Shown: positions 6,564-32,609 of the stretch, piece by piece
How the letters are laid out: each line of letters begins with the position of its first letter
Numbering within the stretch: the stretch's first letter is position 1
Source: Micrococcaceae bacterium Sec5.1
Lineage (GTDB): Bacteria > Actinomycetota > Actinomycetes > Actinomycetales > Micrococcaceae
DNA: 64,000 nt
Assembly: GCA_039636795.1 (NCBI GenBank)
Contig: CP143430.1
Span: 4,464,001-4,528,000, forward strand
Direction: 5' to 3'
The notes under the pieces: model-generated
The model's input: the letters and a program-made list of their open reading frames with translations, nothing else
Database searches by the model: none
What the model was told of the DNA's origin: nothing
Position numbers and translations under genes: made by a program

Positions 6564-7499
6564 ATGCGTATCCCGAAGCAGTTGCCCGGTCGCCTTGAGT
6601 CGGCGCCCTTCACTTGGCAGGAAGCGCTCGACGCCGGCATCACCCGTCAGCGGTGGAGGCACCGAGGTCTTGACTCACCCAGCCGGGGCATCCGCAGCCC
6701 CGCGCCCGAACAAGCGACGGAGTTTTCCATTACGGTCCGGCCCTACACGGTCATTACGCCCTTTTGCGCAGCCTCCCATGCCACGGCGTTCAAGCTCTGG
6801 GAGTTTCCGGGTTTCCTGCCGGGCAGCCACGAATCTGCCATCCACATTTCCCGTCCCGACACCATGGCAATCCCGCGAAGGAAGGAAATGGTGGGGCATG
6901 TAGGGCAGTTCTTCGAGGACGAAATCACTAACCACCAAGGCTTGCTCGTCACCACCAGGGCGCGGACGTGGCTCGATTGCGCCCGGAAGATGAGCATCAA
7001 CGAGATCACGGTGGTGGCCGATCACCTGCTGCGGTTGCCGAGGCCTGAATTCGAAGGGCGCAGCGATCCTTACTGCACGCGCGAGGATCTGGAAACCATG
7101 CTTGACCGCCACAAAGGAACGCCAGGGATCCGGAAGGCTCGCTTGGCACTGGAGCAGGCCCGCGTCGGAGCTGATTCCGCGCCCGAAACCCCGCTTCGGC
7201 TGGCACTCGAGTGGGCTGGGCTGCCAGAAGCGGAAGTCAACATGCCCACTGAGTTGGGTCCCGGCGTCGTGCGTCAACCGGACCTTTCGTATCCCGGACA
7301 GCGCGTGGCCGTGGAATACGAAGGTGAGGGGCACTCCGATCCGGGCCAAATTGTCAGGGACATTGCGCGGGAAGAGGATTTCAGTCGCGCCGGGTGGATA
7401 CTGGTCCGCATCTCAAAGCGCCACATGGGAAACGATGCGAGCTCAGCGGTAGCCAAAGTCAGGAGCGCGCTCATCAATCGTGGATGGACACCCAAGTGA
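6564..7499 (+). CDS. AbiEi-like / DUF559 protein (Vsr-fold nuclease domain), paralogue 1
   Basis: 311 residues from ATG 6564; a GTG at 6519 is in frame but lies inside the conserved upstream 12-mer, so I prefer the ATG. The first 150 residues resemble AbiEi-type antitoxin/regulator proteins (an FTWQEALDAGITRQRWR helix region, SHATAF, TRARTWLDCAR). The C-terminal 100 resemble DUF559, related to Vsr/PD-(D/E)XK nucleases: PDLSYPG, VAVEYEGEGH and a terminal AGWILVRISKRH strand, with acidic residues in the expected places. Shares VGADSAPET and many other blocks with the gene at 29664. The stop codon abuts the downstream hairpin. Function unproven. Confidence 0.75.
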   Translation: MRIPKQLPGRLESAPFTWQEALDAGITRQRWRHRGLDSPSRGIRSPAPEQATEFSITVRPYTVITPFCAASHATAFKLWEFPGFLPGSHESAIHISRPDTMAIPRRKEMVGHVGQFFEDEITNHQGLLVTTRARTWLDCARKMSINEITVVADHLLRLPRPEFEGRSDPYCTREDLETMLDRHKGTPGIRKARLALEQARVGADSAPETPLRLALEWAGLPEAEVNMPTELGPGVVRQPDLSYPGQRVAVEYEGEGHSDPGQIVRDIAREEDFSRAGWILVRISKRHMGNDASSAVAKVRSALINRGWTPK

Positions 7500-28511: not shown

Positions 28512-28523
28512 ACCGCCCCAACC

Positions 28524-28670
28524 CTCTCTCACATCCCCCGCCCTTTCCCCCCACGCTCTCTCACATCCTGACCGCTTTCCCACCGATGCTCTCTCACATC
28601 CCGACCGCTTTCCCCCGACGTTCTCTCACATCCTGACCGGTTTCCACCGATGCTCTTGCACATCCCCACG
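28524..28670. repeat. Tandem array of 32-33-bp units (5 units), left array
   Basis: Units start at 28524, 28556, 28589, 28621 and 28653. Each has the conserved core GAYGYTCTCTCACATC and a more variable 16-base remainder resembling CCGACCGCTTTCCCCC. Read on the plus strand the core points rightward, opposite to the array at 30623-30763. No ORF covers the array and no cas gene is present. Confidence 0.85.
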
Positions 28671-28716
28671 GGGCAGCCCCACCGTGCGCCCTCAGCGCCG
28701 GGGCCTGGCGATTGAC

Positions 28717-28722
28717 TAGACT
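28717..28722 (+). promoter_or_regulatory. Leaderless -10 box for the HAD gene
   Basis: TAGACT, six bases, then ATG at 28729. Confidence 0.55.
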
Positions 28723-28728
28723 CAAGGC

Positions 28729-29544
28729 ATGCCCGACGAGAAGAACGCCGCTGTGGTCGCCGACGCCAAGGTTCCGCAGCACACCGGCGAAGCCGCTTTC
28801 TTCGACGTCGACAACACTTTGATGAAGGGCGCCAGCCTCTTCCATGTGGCCCGCAAGATGTACGAACGCAAGGCCTTCACGCTGTCCCAGGCGGCTGGCT
28901 TCGCGTGGAAGCAGTTCAAGTTTGTAATGCGCGGCGAGAACATGGACGACGTCCATGCCGTGCGCGACTCGGCCCTGACGTTGGCCGCCGGGATCACTGT
29001 GGAGGACATCAAAGCCCTGGGCGAAGAAGTTTATGACGAAATGATCGAGTCCCGGATCTGGCCTGGAACCAAAGCGCTCGCCGAGCAACACCTCCGTGTA
29101 GGCCGGAGGGTATGGCTGGTGACGGCGACCCCCATTGAGGTTGCCACCGTGATCTCCACAAGGTTGGGCCTGACGGGCGCGCTGGGAACCGTCGGCGAAG
29201 TCCATGACGGAATGTATACCGGCAAGCTTGTCGGTGACATTCTGCACGGCCCGGCCAAAGCCATCGCGGTCCAGCTCATAGCTGACCAAGAAGGCTTGGA
29301 CTTAGACCACTGCTGGGCTTACAGCGACTCCGCCAATGACATCCCCCTGCTCACTATGGTGGGCCACCCCGTGGTGATCAACCCCGATTCGAAGCTGCGC
29401 CGGCATGCCCGCGACAACAACTGGCCGGTCTACGATTTCCGATCCGGTCGCCGTGCAGCAACCCTGGGGCTGAAGGCGGCCACCGTGGGCGGTGCCATCT
29501 ACGGGCTGTGGCGTGGATTCTCAAAGTTCCGCGGGCCCCGCTAG
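28729..29544 (+). CDS. HAD-IB family hydrolase (phosphoserine-phosphatase-like)
   Basis: 271 residues. HAD motif I is FFDVDNTLMKG near residue 23 with the nucleophile Asp and second Asp; VWLVTATP near 126 is motif II; the Lys is in the GPAKAIAVQ region near 183; motif IV is YSDSANDIPLL near 201. This is the IB subfamily, which includes SerB-type phosphatases and lysophosphatidic-acid phosphatase domains. The helical cap (40-110) fits. A hydrophobic stretch near the C-terminus may contact membrane. Substrate unknown. It lies between two blocks of the 32-bp repeats. Confidence 0.88.
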   Translation: MPDEKNAAVVADAKVPQHTGEAAFFDVDNTLMKGASLFHVARKMYERKAFTLSQAAGFAWKQFKFVMRGENMDDVHAVRDSALTLAAGITVEDIKALGEEVYDEMIESRIWPGTKALAEQHLRVGRRVWLVTATPIEVATVISTRLGLTGALGTVGEVHDGMYTGKLVGDILHGPAKAIAVQLIADQEGLDLDHCWAYSDSANDIPLLTMVGHPVVINPDSKLRRHARDNNWPVYDFRSGRRAATLGLKAATVGGAIYGLWRGFSKFRGPR

Positions 29545-29546
29545 CC

Positions 29547-29598
29547 GTTCCTCTCTCACATCCCCACGCGTTTCCAGCGTTCCTCTCCCACATCCTCT
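29547..29598. repeat. Two further units of the 32-bp repeat
   Basis: Cores at 29551 (CTCTCTCACATCC) and 29583 (CTCTCCCACATCC) are 32 bases apart, in the same orientation as the array at 28524-28670. They begin right after the HAD stop codon. Confidence 0.8.
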
Positions 29599-29613
29599 GG
29601 TACTGCTGGCCTA

Positions 29614-29625
29614 CCTGTGGATAAC
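29614..29625. promoter_or_regulatory. CCTGTGGATAAC element (perfect DnaA-box sequence)
   Basis: Identical 12-mer to 6516-6527, placed 50 bases before the ATG of the second DUF559 gene. The reverse complement holds TTATCCACA. Confidence 0.6.
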
Positions 29626-29663
29626 TTCTGCACGCTTAGCGGCTTCCAAGGAACAATGCGGGT

Positions 29664-30629
29664 ATGCAGAATTCGTTACTCAACCAATCCAGCCCGCTCT
29701 TGGGACCGTTCAGCCTGAACGACGCCAAGGCAGCGGGCATCGATCTTTCAGACATTTGGCGCAGCAGTAGCATCGTTCCTGTGAGCCGGGGCTTGTATCG
29801 GCCGACGGATTGGGATTTCGACCTCTCGTCAGCTGCCCGTTCCCTCTCGTCAGCCAGCCCTGGCGCTTGGATCTCCCATACAACGGCAGCCAGGCTCCAT
29901 GGTTTTGTCTTGCCGGCGTGGCTATCGGATTCAAATGAATTGCATTTGAGCAAACCGCGACGTCTGCCGTCGGTCCGGCGCAAAGGCATCATAGGGCACA
30001 CTGAAACGCTCTTCGAGGGAGAAATTGAGCAAGTCCAAGGGATTTGGATGAGCACTCGAGCTAGAACATGGCTGGACTTGGCGCGTCGTCTCCCCCTTCA
30101 TGACCTCGTATGCGTGGCAGATCAGTTGATTCGCATTCCACGGCTGAATCTTGAGGGGCGCGATACACCGTTCGCCACTGCCGAAGGGCTTCGGAGCATG
30201 GTCGAACGGCACAAGAACCGTCAGGGCGTAGTCCGGGCACGGGAAGCCCTGGACCTCATGCGCGTCGGGGCCGACTCAGCTCCAGAGACTTTGCTTCGTT
30301 TAGCCATGCTCGATGCCAACTTGCCCGAGCCTCAGCTCCAGGTGATGCTCCGCGCGGACGACCCGTTCTCGCCGTCAGCAGACTTGGGTTTCAAGAGCCG
30401 TCGCCTCGCGATCCAGTACGACGGCGGCCATCACCTTGAGGAGGAACAGATCCATAGCGATCGGCGCAGGGATAAGGCATTTAGAGCAGCGGGGTGGACT
30501 GTCCTCGTTTTCGGAAAAGAGGACCTGGCGGACAACTTTGGCAACGCCGTTCTGCAGATCAAGCGGGCGCTACGGACTGCATGGATGGATCCATCCGTTG
30601 CATCCGGGTTTGCCAAGAACGCGACGTGA
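29664..30629 (+). CDS. AbiEi-like / DUF559 protein (Vsr-fold nuclease domain), paralogue 2
   Basis: 321 residues. N-terminal AbiEi-like part: FSLNDAKAAGI, VSRGLYRP, SHTTAARLHGF, then TRARTWLDLARRLPLHDLVCVADQLIRIPR, closely matching the gene at 6564. C-terminal DUF559 part: VGADSAPETLLRLAM, ADLGFKSRRLAIQYDGGHH, RDKAFRAAGWTVLVF. Where paralogue 1 has VEYEG, this one has IQYDG, so one acidic residue of the putative nuclease centre is Gln; it may be altered or inactive. The TGA stop is inside the first unit of the downstream repeat array. Function unproven. Confidence 0.75.
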   Translation: MQNSLLNQSSPLLGPFSLNDAKAAGIDLSDIWRSSSIVPVSRGLYRPTDWDFDLSSAARSLSSASPGAWISHTTAARLHGFVLPAWLSDSNELHLSKPRRLPSVRRKGIIGHTETLFEGEIEQVQGIWMSTRARTWLDLARRLPLHDLVCVADQLIRIPRLNLEGRDTPFATAEGLRSMVERHKNRQGVVRAREALDLMRVGADSAPETLLRLAMLDANLPEPQLQVMLRADDPFSPSADLGFKSRRLAIQYDGGHHLEEEQIHSDRRRDKAFRAAGWTVLVFGKEDLADNFGNAVLQIKRALRTAWMDPSVASGFAKNAT

Positions 30630-30763
30630 GAGAACGTCCGGGCACAAGCGCCACGACGTGAGAGAACATCGGGCCAAAAGTGTCCCGACGTGAGAGAACA
30701 TCCCGCCAGAAGCGCCACGACGTGAGAGAACATCCCGCCAGAAGCGCCACGACGTGAGAGAGC
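30623..30763. repeat. Tandem array of exactly 32-bp units (5 units), right array, inverted
   Basis: Units start at 30623, 30655, 30687, 30719 and 30751 with core GACGTGAGAGAACATC; units 3 and 4 are identical over 32 bases. The core is the reverse complement of the one in the arrays at 28524 and 29547. The first unit contains the stop codon of the DUF559 gene. Confidence 0.9.
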
Positions 30764-30798
30764 AAAAATGCCCGCCGCCTTGGAAGGCAACGGGCATT
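30764..30798 (-). terminator. Rho-independent terminator of the bS22 gene
   Basis: On the minus strand AATGCCCG (30798-30791) pairs with CGGGCATT (30774-30767), with an inner GCCTT/AAGGC stem, followed by TTTTT at 30768-30764. Confidence 0.8.
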
Positions 30799-31451: not shown

Positions 31452-32609
31452 CTACTCCCCCGCGACCAGCCGGCGCTTCCGCGCAGACGAAGCAAGCTGT
31501 TCCAGCACCGAAGCGGTGACATCCCATTCCATGCAGGCATCCGTAACGCTCTGGCCGTAAACGAGCTCCTGCTCCCCCGCGAGTTGCTTGGTCACATCCA
31601 GGTTCTGCGCCCCTCCCACGAGGAAGCTCTCCAGCATGACGCCAGCAATCGGCGAAGTCTCCCCCGCCTCAAGCTGCGCACCGATTTCCAGGGCAACTTC
31701 AGCCTGGCGGTGGTGGCTCTTTCCACTGTTGGCGTGACTCGCGTCCACAATCAAGCGCGGGTTCAGTCCCTTGGCGGCGAGCTTGGAGGAGGCAGCGGCA
31801 ACGTCTTCCGACGAGTAGTTTGGACCCTTGCGTCCGCCGCGCAGGATCACGTGGGTGTCCGGGTTGCCGGACGTCGCCACGAGGGCCGCGCGGCCGTCGT
31901 CGTCGATTCCGAGGAAGGCTTGTTCAGCGGCCGACGCGCCGCAGGCATCGATGGCCACCTGGAGGTCGCCGTCGGTTCCGTTCTTGAAGCCAATGGGCAT
32001 GGACAGCCCGGAGGCGAGCTGACGGTGGATCTGGCTTTCAGTGGTACGGGCACCGATCGCACCCCAGGAGACGAGGTCGGCCATGTACTGCGGGCTGATG
32101 GGTTCCAGGAACTCAGTGGCGGTGGGCAGTCCCAGCGCGGTGACCCGCTTGAGGAAGCCGCGGGCTGCCCGCAGGCCGGCGGCAATATCGTGGCTGCCGT
32201 CCAGGTGGGGATCGTTGATGAGGCCCTTCCAGCCGACCGTGGTGCGGGGCTTCTCGAAGTAGGTCCGCATGACGATCAGCAGGTCTTCCTTGTGTTTCTC
32301 CGCCTGGCTGACCAGCCGACGTGCGTATTCCAGTCCGGCTTTGGGATCGTGGATGGAGCAAGGCCCGACGATTACCAGCAGGCGGTCGTCCACGCCGTCC
32401 ATGATGGCCCGCACTTCATCTCGGCCACGGTCGACGACGGCAGCTGAGTGGGCGTCCAGCGGCAACTCGGCGATGAGGTCCTGAGGGGCCGGAAGCGGTT
32501 CGAAGCGGGCTACGCGCAAGTTGGAGGTGGCGGGCTGGGAAGCTTTCCCGGCAACGCGGAGTGCCTCGTTGTCGAGTGTCTCGGTGGATTCTGCAGCGAT
32601 GCTGGTCAT
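31452..32609 (-). CDS. 3-deoxy-7-phosphoheptulonate (DAHP) synthase, class I
   Basis: 385 residues, somewhat longer than E. coli AroFGH (about 350). It condenses phosphoenolpyruvate and erythrose 4-phosphate in the first step of aromatic amino-acid synthesis. Motifs: RDEVRAIMDG, LVIVGPCSIHDPKAGLEYA near 79-97, RTYFEKPRTTVGWKGLINDP near 116-135, GARTTESQIHRQLASGLSMP near 184-203, and DASHANSGK with the metal-binding His near 290. AGGA lies eight bases before the ATG. Preceded by an aromatic leader peptide and hairpin that indicate attenuation control. Confidence 0.95.
   Translation of the reverse strand: MTSIAAESTETLDNEALRVAGKASQPATSNLRVARFEPLPAPQDLIAELPLDAHSAAVVDRGRDEVRAIMDGVDDRLLVIVGPCSIHDPKAGLEYARRLVSQAEKHKEDLLIVMRTYFEKPRTTVGWKGLINDPHLDGSHDIAAGLRAARGFLKRVTALGLPTATEFLEPISPQYMADLVSWGAIGARTTESQIHRQLASGLSMPIGFKNGTDGDLQVAIDACGASAAEQAFLGIDDDGRAALVATSGNPDTHVILRGGRKGPNYSSEDVAAASSKLAAKGLNPRLIVDASHANSGKSHHRQAEVALEIGAQLEAGETSPIAGVMLESFLVGGAQNLDVTKQLAGEQELVYGQSVTDACMEWDVTASVLEQLASSARKRRLVAGE

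Follow-up and report, generated by a model that had tools for sequence, protein, structure and literature searches.

A gene for a DUF559/AbiEi-like protein in Micrococcaceae bacterium Sec5.1, a soil bacterium, together with the arrays of a 32-bp tandem repeat that bracket it, probably constitutes a repeat-nuclease pair, in which the protein would recognise the repeat unit and, by nicking or binding, would have homogenised and spread the arrays. The gene lies in a window of 64,000 nucleotides (contig CP143430.1, positions 4,464,001 to 4,528,000 of the forward strand), whose own coordinates are used below. Judged from sequence comparison, recognition of the repeat by the protein is well supported, as is the resemblance to repetitive extragenic palindromic (REP) sequences and their RAYT nucleases that a preliminary description of the window had pointed out, because arrays track the gene at several loci, the core of the repeat is specific to the gene copy and agrees on both sides of it, and the two copy-specific cores that were followed are dispersed in their own genomes. 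Moreover, different gene copies in related bacteria are each accompanied by a version of the repeat that matches them, a pattern suggesting that nuclease and recognition sites evolve together.

Repeat arrays in the window

The region contains the following features.

28520 to 28664, + strand: left array, five units of the 32-bp repeat; five units also at the same place in the sister genome G439
28729 to 29544, + strand: HAD-IB family hydrolase gene, a neighbouring host gene, seen next to the DUF559 gene at locus A alone and found in 12 of 80 named loci
29547 to 29594, + strand: middle array, two units that begin 3 bp past the stop codon of the HAD gene; three units at the same place in G439
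29664 to 30629, + strand: gene for a 321-residue AbiEi-fold and DUF559 (Vsr-like) protein, the proposed repeat partner, assigned by PF04480, AbiEi profiles, a structure model and invariant residues
30623 to 30766, - strand: right array, five units spaced by exactly 32 bp, the array reaching over the stop codon of the DUF559 gene; six units at the same place in G439

The DUF559 gene is surrounded, as first described, by twelve units of a single repeat family, five and two on its left and five on its right. The earlier account of their spacing also holds, since the left units start at 28520, 28552, 28585, 28617 and 28649 (intervals of 32, 33, 32 and 32) and those on the right are all 32 bp apart. 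The 16-base core, GAYGYTCTCTCACRTC, reads on the + strand in the five and two units of the left side and as its reverse complement, on the - strand, in the five of the right side; six of the twelve units match it exactly and the remaining ones with 1-3 mismatches. Over the whole window there are 14 matches at three mismatches or fewer, 12 of them inside the arrays; 100 shuffles averaged 3.3 and never exceeded 10. The array-flanked stretch is therefore real, with its bounds corrected from 28524-30763 to 28520-30766, and the stop codon of the DUF559 gene falls inside the innermost unit of the right array.

No period-32 stretch was found in the 61.5 kb of the window outside the arrays, and no Rfam match was found between 28000 and 31200. 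A hairpin reading of the core, as an imperfect palindrome of the form GATGT...ACATC, was rejected, five candidate pairs being about as complementary as shuffled ones. Palindrome covariation was likewise not found, the pairing of positions 1-5 with 12-16 being close to that of shuffled sequences, and the repeat consensus does not carry a GTAG tag; unit positions 1-16 were chosen by the search pattern, and their information content is therefore inflated. The layout is not that of a CRISPR with its unique spacers, in that the sequence separating one core from the next also recurs within an array. The identity of these inter-core stretches is 0.78 within an array and 0.47 between arrays, as compared with 0.87 and 0.79 for the core (itself chosen by pattern), which indicates that arrays are homogenised singly while the core is common to all.

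Gene and arrays across genomes

A survey of 395 genomes of the family found the exact core of the source genome (G000) in 22, a strict tandem form of it in 31 and a relaxed tandem form in 68. By genus, the relaxed form occurs in 61 of 77 genomes of g1, in 7 of 23 of g24 and in none of 295 from the other 30 genera, with one match in total for the reversed control. Close orthologs of the DUF559 protein (E <= 2.4e-110, matches from E 4e-101 onward being taken as paralogs) were found in 53 of 77, 21 of 23 and 0 of 295, respectively, and hence both orthologs and tandem cores are confined to the same 2 of 32 genera sampled. Within g1, source-type arrays are present in 50 of 53 genomes with an ortholog vs. 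11 of 24 without, and at least twenty tandem matches were reached in 30 of the former and 0 of the latter, relatedness being ignored in these counts.

The preliminary description had raised two doubts, a core scattered without any link to DUF559 genes and arrays kept where the gene is absent. The first stands as to scatter, with 230 core matches in the source genome against 9 for the reversed pattern, but not as to the missing link, given that arrays accompany the gene at several loci. The second is borne out in the 11 g1 genomes without an ortholog that hold 1-13 tandem matches, but not in the other 13 of the 24, which have no source-type arrays. Four genomes (G364, G374, G393 and G282) have 8-13 tandem core matches yet no close ortholog, and these could be remnants after gene loss or the sites of an unrecognised partner.

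Random scatter unlinked to the gene was suggested by paralogs lying off arrays and by the gene occurring in genomes without the source-type core; it was rejected on finding other period-32 cores beside the gene in those genomes. Of 18 ortholog loci that were fetched (G198, G252, G390, G009 and several of g24 among them), 15 have an exact 32-bp periodicity next to the gene when the threshold is set at 70%, and the remaining three (G182, G192 and G298) show one or two units per side by eye. G198, G252 and G390 are the three g1 genomes with an ortholog but no source-type array. The loci of the 29 best relatives, from a different genus draw, all have two or more spaced units near the gene, counted at up to three mismatches to the core of the source genome.

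The best 80 of 238 loci in named genomes were also scanned with no motif assumed. The strongest period between 20 and 60 within 400 bp of the gene is 32 upstream in 76/80 and downstream in 61/80, ties being resolved to 32 and four loci having a flank shorter than 400 bp on one side. At a threshold of 28 matching bases in 40, 75/80 loci show the lag of 32 on at least one side (68/80 upstream, 47/80 downstream), as against 5 of 666 control segments taken from the same loci; other lags gave 7 (lag 30), 6 (lag 36), 1 (lag 31) and 1 (lag 34) in the same controls. Two of the named loci, L292 and L316, come from records titled Sporosarcina beigongshangi REN13 and carry Arthrobacter-type DUF559 genes and arrays; the name or the assembly is probably wrong.

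Copy-specific cores

Cores beside other copies of the gene are quite different from that of the window, most of them starting with RACGC or RACCC, and include GACGCTCGGTTGCAACCGGGG, GACGCGGTATCACTTTTGG, GACGCTCCTGCACTTTCGG and GACGCCATCGCAGCAATGG. Two named loci with short open frames were omitted from the core-agreement and tree analyses, leaving 78 full-length ones, and in 70 of these a core is present on both sides of the gene. The cores on either side of the same gene are identical to 0.744, vs. 0.597 between genes (standard deviation 0.009, maximum 0.637, in 2000 shuffles of the 70 loci), where the script that chose the cores favours an RACGC-like start equally for real and shuffled pairs. 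Genomes with two copies have different cores at the two sites, and the pairs L273/L300 and L274/L290 differ only in the 3' part of the core.

An array that shows the site of the neighbouring gene copy leads one to expect dispersal of this site in that copy's genome only, and two predictions of this kind both held. For the core of the second G231 copy, G231 has 20 matches, including five at the gene itself, and none of 29 other genomes has more than one; single matches are at chance level, since the reversed control gave them in 5 of 30 genomes, with none in G231. The core of the G113/G052 copy has 18 matches in G113, 8 in G052 and 6 in G291 (2, 1 and 1 at the gene), one in G211 and none in 26 others, with a control of zero. 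These two families occupy 18 places, nine with two units and nine with one, and 16 of the 17 places with a called upstream gene lie in sense orientation 3 to 109 bases behind its stop codon.

A 400-kb sample of G231 revealed neither of the expected core families, all listed places of core b being outside the sampled stretches. A third 32-bp tandem family with another core occurs in G231 at L208:14464-14547 and L211:18361-18432, and families with periods such as 26, 33 and 35 were also seen in the sample, some of which may belong to other DUF559 copies.

The DUF559 protein

The label DUF559/AbiEi-like is confirmed by matches to PF04480 (DUF559; E 8.9e-7) and to AbiEi profiles (E 4.6e-12). To our knowledge, this subfamily has no established function. 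Also upheld is its separateness from RAYT, since Pfam gives DUF559 and a weak AbiEi_4 with no transposase domain of any kind, including the IS200/IS605-type tyrosine transposase, and the fold matches Vsr-like and AbiEi structures. The best AlphaFold2 model (mean predicted local distance difference test score, pLDDT, 87.8) has structural matches to Vsr/I-Bth0305I-like proteins and to AbiEi, and the predicted architecture is thus an AbiEi fold to which a Vsr/I-Bth0305I-like nuclease, with putative nicking activity, is fused. Acid and His residues of the Vsr type are present, with D240, D253 and H257 invariant across 41 aligned orthologs; this alignment (A1) used 41 of 48 ortholog loci, omitting five with in-frame stops and two others, and one row contains unread letters (X).

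Nine DUF559/AbiEi-like proteins were matched in the source genome, and no array was found within 1.5 kb of eight paralogs there (periods 15 to 79, 72% threshold). One such paralog, at 6603-7490 (+) of the window, is 38% identical to the array-flanked protein and has no flanking array. Upstream of the DUF559 gene lies the HAD hydrolase gene, and downstream the next + strand open reading frame (ORF) of at least 90 residues starts at 31584; no toxin-like gene was seen beside it in the ORF list, an AbiEii profile search not being among the searches run. Plasmid relatives comprise three records at 35-38% identity (E <= 1e-20) and phage relatives one record at 31% (E <= 1e-5), so that close relatives were not seen on the mobile elements searched.

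Proposed mechanism

The protein would join an AbiEi-type DNA-binding fold to a Vsr/I-Bth0305I-like nuclease domain, and its target would be the variable part of the unit, about 8-10 bp following the RACGC-like start. A spacing of 32 bp is close to three helical turns, such that tandem units could show the site on one face of the DNA. By nicking or binding at these sites, the protein would then keep arrays homogeneous and alter their copy number; it would also have scattered arrays along the chromosome, and most of those that persist are behind gene ends. The sequences themselves show that gene and arrays are paired, that the core agrees on the two sides of a gene, differs between copies and is dispersed in the genome of its copy, that arrays have a preferred position and orientation behind genes, and that the acid and His residues are conserved. 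From this we infer that the protein binds the unit directly and nicks it, and that nicking has caused the spread and the homogenisation.

Several observations weigh against the pairing of nuclease and repeat or against parts of its mechanism. Eleven ortholog-less g1 genomes retain some arrays, the two paralog loci read in such genomes (G364 and G374) have no arrays beside the gene, and 5/80 named loci (L249, L286, L305, L308 and L320) are below threshold on both sides and lack clear arrays. On the protein side, only one of five AlphaFold2 models was good, the other four having a mean pLDDT of 64-70, and Foldseek alone gave no match at E <= 0.001. Covariation of protein and core does not point to the winged helix-turn-helix (wHTH), the partial r being 0.155 for the wHTH, 0.193 for the middle part, 0.256 for DUF559 and -0.186 for the linker. 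A placement of specificity in any one domain was thus abandoned, since the partial correlations failed to separate domains.

Evidence against active hopping also comes from the sister genome G439, in which 29 of 55 clusters of the source genome could be placed; all 29 have at least one unit there and 28 have two or more. A cluster was placed only if both flanks lay on one fetched piece, and the 26 unplaced ones are therefore not evidence of absence. Unit number is equal in 9 of the 29. Since the arrays are shared, the compared positions are older than the split of the two genomes, and these stable positions speak for slow spread, or for an old invasion followed by rewriting in place.

Arrays at gene ends

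The source genome is a single contig of 5.43 Mb, and its 230 core matches were counted at two mismatches or fewer. Rescanning the stretches around the listed matches gave at least 260 units in 78 groups, 75 of which have two or more units, although arrays elsewhere with units off the listed patterns are missed by such a census. Of 182 unit spacings, 174 are 32, three are 31 and five are 33. Judged by our own simple gene caller, arrays with at least two units fall into intergenic gaps or run into the end of a gene. For the counts of position and orientation given below, the genes of an insertion sequence (IS) element were taken out of the gene list, the DUF559 gene was corrected and a short gene following it was added.

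An IS3-type element (74 aa + 261 aa) occurs in or beside arrays at five places of the source genome, at about 761.2, 1079.5, 1483.4, 3145.6 and 5041.6 kb (L051, L055, L056, L062 and L071), as some IS elements do in REPs; rve and HTH domains were found in the one copy searched. Inverted pairs of arrays can also have a fixed centre. In nine pairs of G347, G370 and G244 (L223, L225-L227, L232, L233, L236, L238 and L240), the last + and first - unit starts are 23 bp apart, while L230 and L234 have 33; the source genome has a pair with the 23-bp centre at 4571234/4571257.

The positions of the arrays give rise to a rival explanation that falls somewhat short of even odds, in which the arrays are gene-end sites useful to the host and the protein is a domesticated site-specific factor, serving to stop transcription, separate convergent genes or relieve supercoiling rather than to spread selfishly. 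In fact, 55 of the 75 arrays lie behind a gene 3' end in the reading direction of that gene and 20 do not (binomial p 3.2e-5). Among these 55, the array starts within 100 bp of the stop codon in 43, within ten in 31 and exactly on the last two bases of the stop codon in 17. By gap, 35 arrays are between convergent genes, 34 between tandem genes and 4 between divergent genes, with 2 unclear. The two copy-specific families repeat this preference (16 of 17 places), and positions are kept in G439 where they can be compared. Furthermore, at 8 of 20 array loci in G347, G370 and G244, the adjacent gene has a relative in the source genome, 71-93% identical, that is also at an array.

Against a host role at gene ends stand the 13 of 24 g1 genomes that lack the gene and show no source-type array. 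Source-genome relatives of the array-adjacent genes at L222, L226 and L234, and of the second gene at L230, lie away from arrays, the gene set for this three-genome comparison consisting only of genes near source-genome arrays. Adjacency to stop codons could also arise through deletion of other intergenic DNA up to the array. The gene-end rule does account in part for the opposite orientation of the arrays around the DUF559 gene, because the middle array comes after the HAD gene and the right one after a short gene on the opposite strand; the leftmost array (28520) is exceptional in lying between two divergent genes.

A selfish repeat alone does not explain sense arrays behind stop codons, and a transcription-end role or copying into opened DNA is possible. 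Tentatively, the nuclease and its arrays could make up a self-diversifying system at gene ends, in which each AbiEi-Vsr copy drifts in specificity, tandem arrays are rewritten in place to match it, gene-end sites change together and two copies keep two sets of sites, all under a conserved transcription-end role. Such a system would be a bacterial analogue of RAYT-driven repeats by way of a different nuclease fold.

Operators, terminators and mobile cassettes

An unlikely alternative is that the flanking arrays are operators for AbiEi-like self-repression and the dispersed arrays a regulon or decoys. AbiEi antitoxins are described as binding inverted repeats in their own promoter (PMC7319586), and lag-32 repeats do stand upstream of the gene at most named loci (68/80). 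Yet the dispersed arrays lie behind genes and not before them, with 4/75 between divergent genes, and arrays also stand behind the DUF559 gene itself (47/80); moreover, the nuclease domain has conserved acid and His residues.

Very improbable is a set of Rho-type or other terminators that are independent of the protein, which would then sit among them by chance. The core is C-rich and G-poor on the coding strand behind stop codons, as such a terminator might be, but it varies with the DUF559 copy within one genome and agrees across one gene, the two cores tested are dispersed only where their copy exists (single matches aside), and ten paralog loci are without arrays.

The genomic sites of the gene were distinguished by neighbour sizes, eleven of them by hand. 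Site A, that of the window, has HAD, rex and aroF; site B lies between genes of ~560 aa and ~345 aa, and site C beside genes of 298 and 457 aa; D and E are two further sites. Arrays occur at each kind of site from A to E. In a tree of the 78 orthologs and a paralog, A, C, D and E are each monophyletic (support of at least 100/94) and B is divided, a pattern that requires at least four site changes. Site B is presumably the oldest location of the gene, and old duplications into new sites would look identical. A currently mobile cassette with array ends that carries the HAD and DUF559 genes together, as the preliminary description had considered, fits the inverted geometry and the at least four locus changes but is the most improbable reading of all, for locus changes are rare, every new locus corresponds to a single clade, arrays keep their positions in G439 where comparable, and the HAD gene is beside the DUF559 gene in only 12/80 named loci; there is no sign that HAD travels with the arrays, which stand at the same places in G439 and flank other loci without it.

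Comparison with known systems

Dispersed repeats paired with a cognate nuclease gene are a known kind of system, and what is new here is the class of nuclease, the tandem arrangement of 32-bp units and a core that is specific to the gene copy. A GIY-YIG nuclease is said to be paired with Neisseria repeats, which our literature search did not confirm and on which nothing here relies. No description of the present gene-repeat pairing was found in a full-text literature search, by title and abstract, whose coverage left subscription papers and preprints mostly outside.

From I-Bth0305I and other Vsr-like homing endonucleases, the gene differs in being free-standing as far as seen, and its partner sites are arrays behind genes and not one homing site. 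It differs from the AbiEi antitoxins of type IV toxin-antitoxin systems in its added nuclease domain and in having no toxin-like neighbour in the ORF list. Many units start with GACG, which is CGTC on the other strand (beside L174 and L169, for example), and this is a lead only towards the CGTC-tagged REPs, a class described without a dedicated transposase (PMC3733652). Those REPs are, in the same account, palindromes from five phyla without Actinobacteria, unlike the tandem, non-palindromic repeats seen here.

The closest likeness is to REPs and their bacterial interspersed mosaic elements (BIMEs) with RAYT (TnpA-REP). As presented in PMC2817692 and PMC12306157, these are dispersed extragenic repeats, often in inverted pairs and some near stop codons, with a nuclease gene that has repeats of its own type to either side and several gene-repeat pairs in one bacterial group. 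A RAYT gene is stated to be always flanked by two inverted REPs (PMC2817692), and for E. coli REPs close to stop codons a role in regulating translation is discussed (PMC12306157). Inverted flanking repeats and many dispersed extragenic copies (the 230 matches) are found here as well. Unlike REP-RAYT, the partner has an AbiEi fold and a Vsr-like nuclease instead of an HUH/Y1 transposase, and the unit is a tandem 32-bp repeat without palindrome covariation or a GTAG tag. The proposed pair brings its own dispersed sites, such that its specificity could be read from genomes and swapped between copies. If this is true, a different nuclease has given rise to the REP-RAYT arrangement a second time, and the pair would offer a direct way into why repeats gather behind stop codons.
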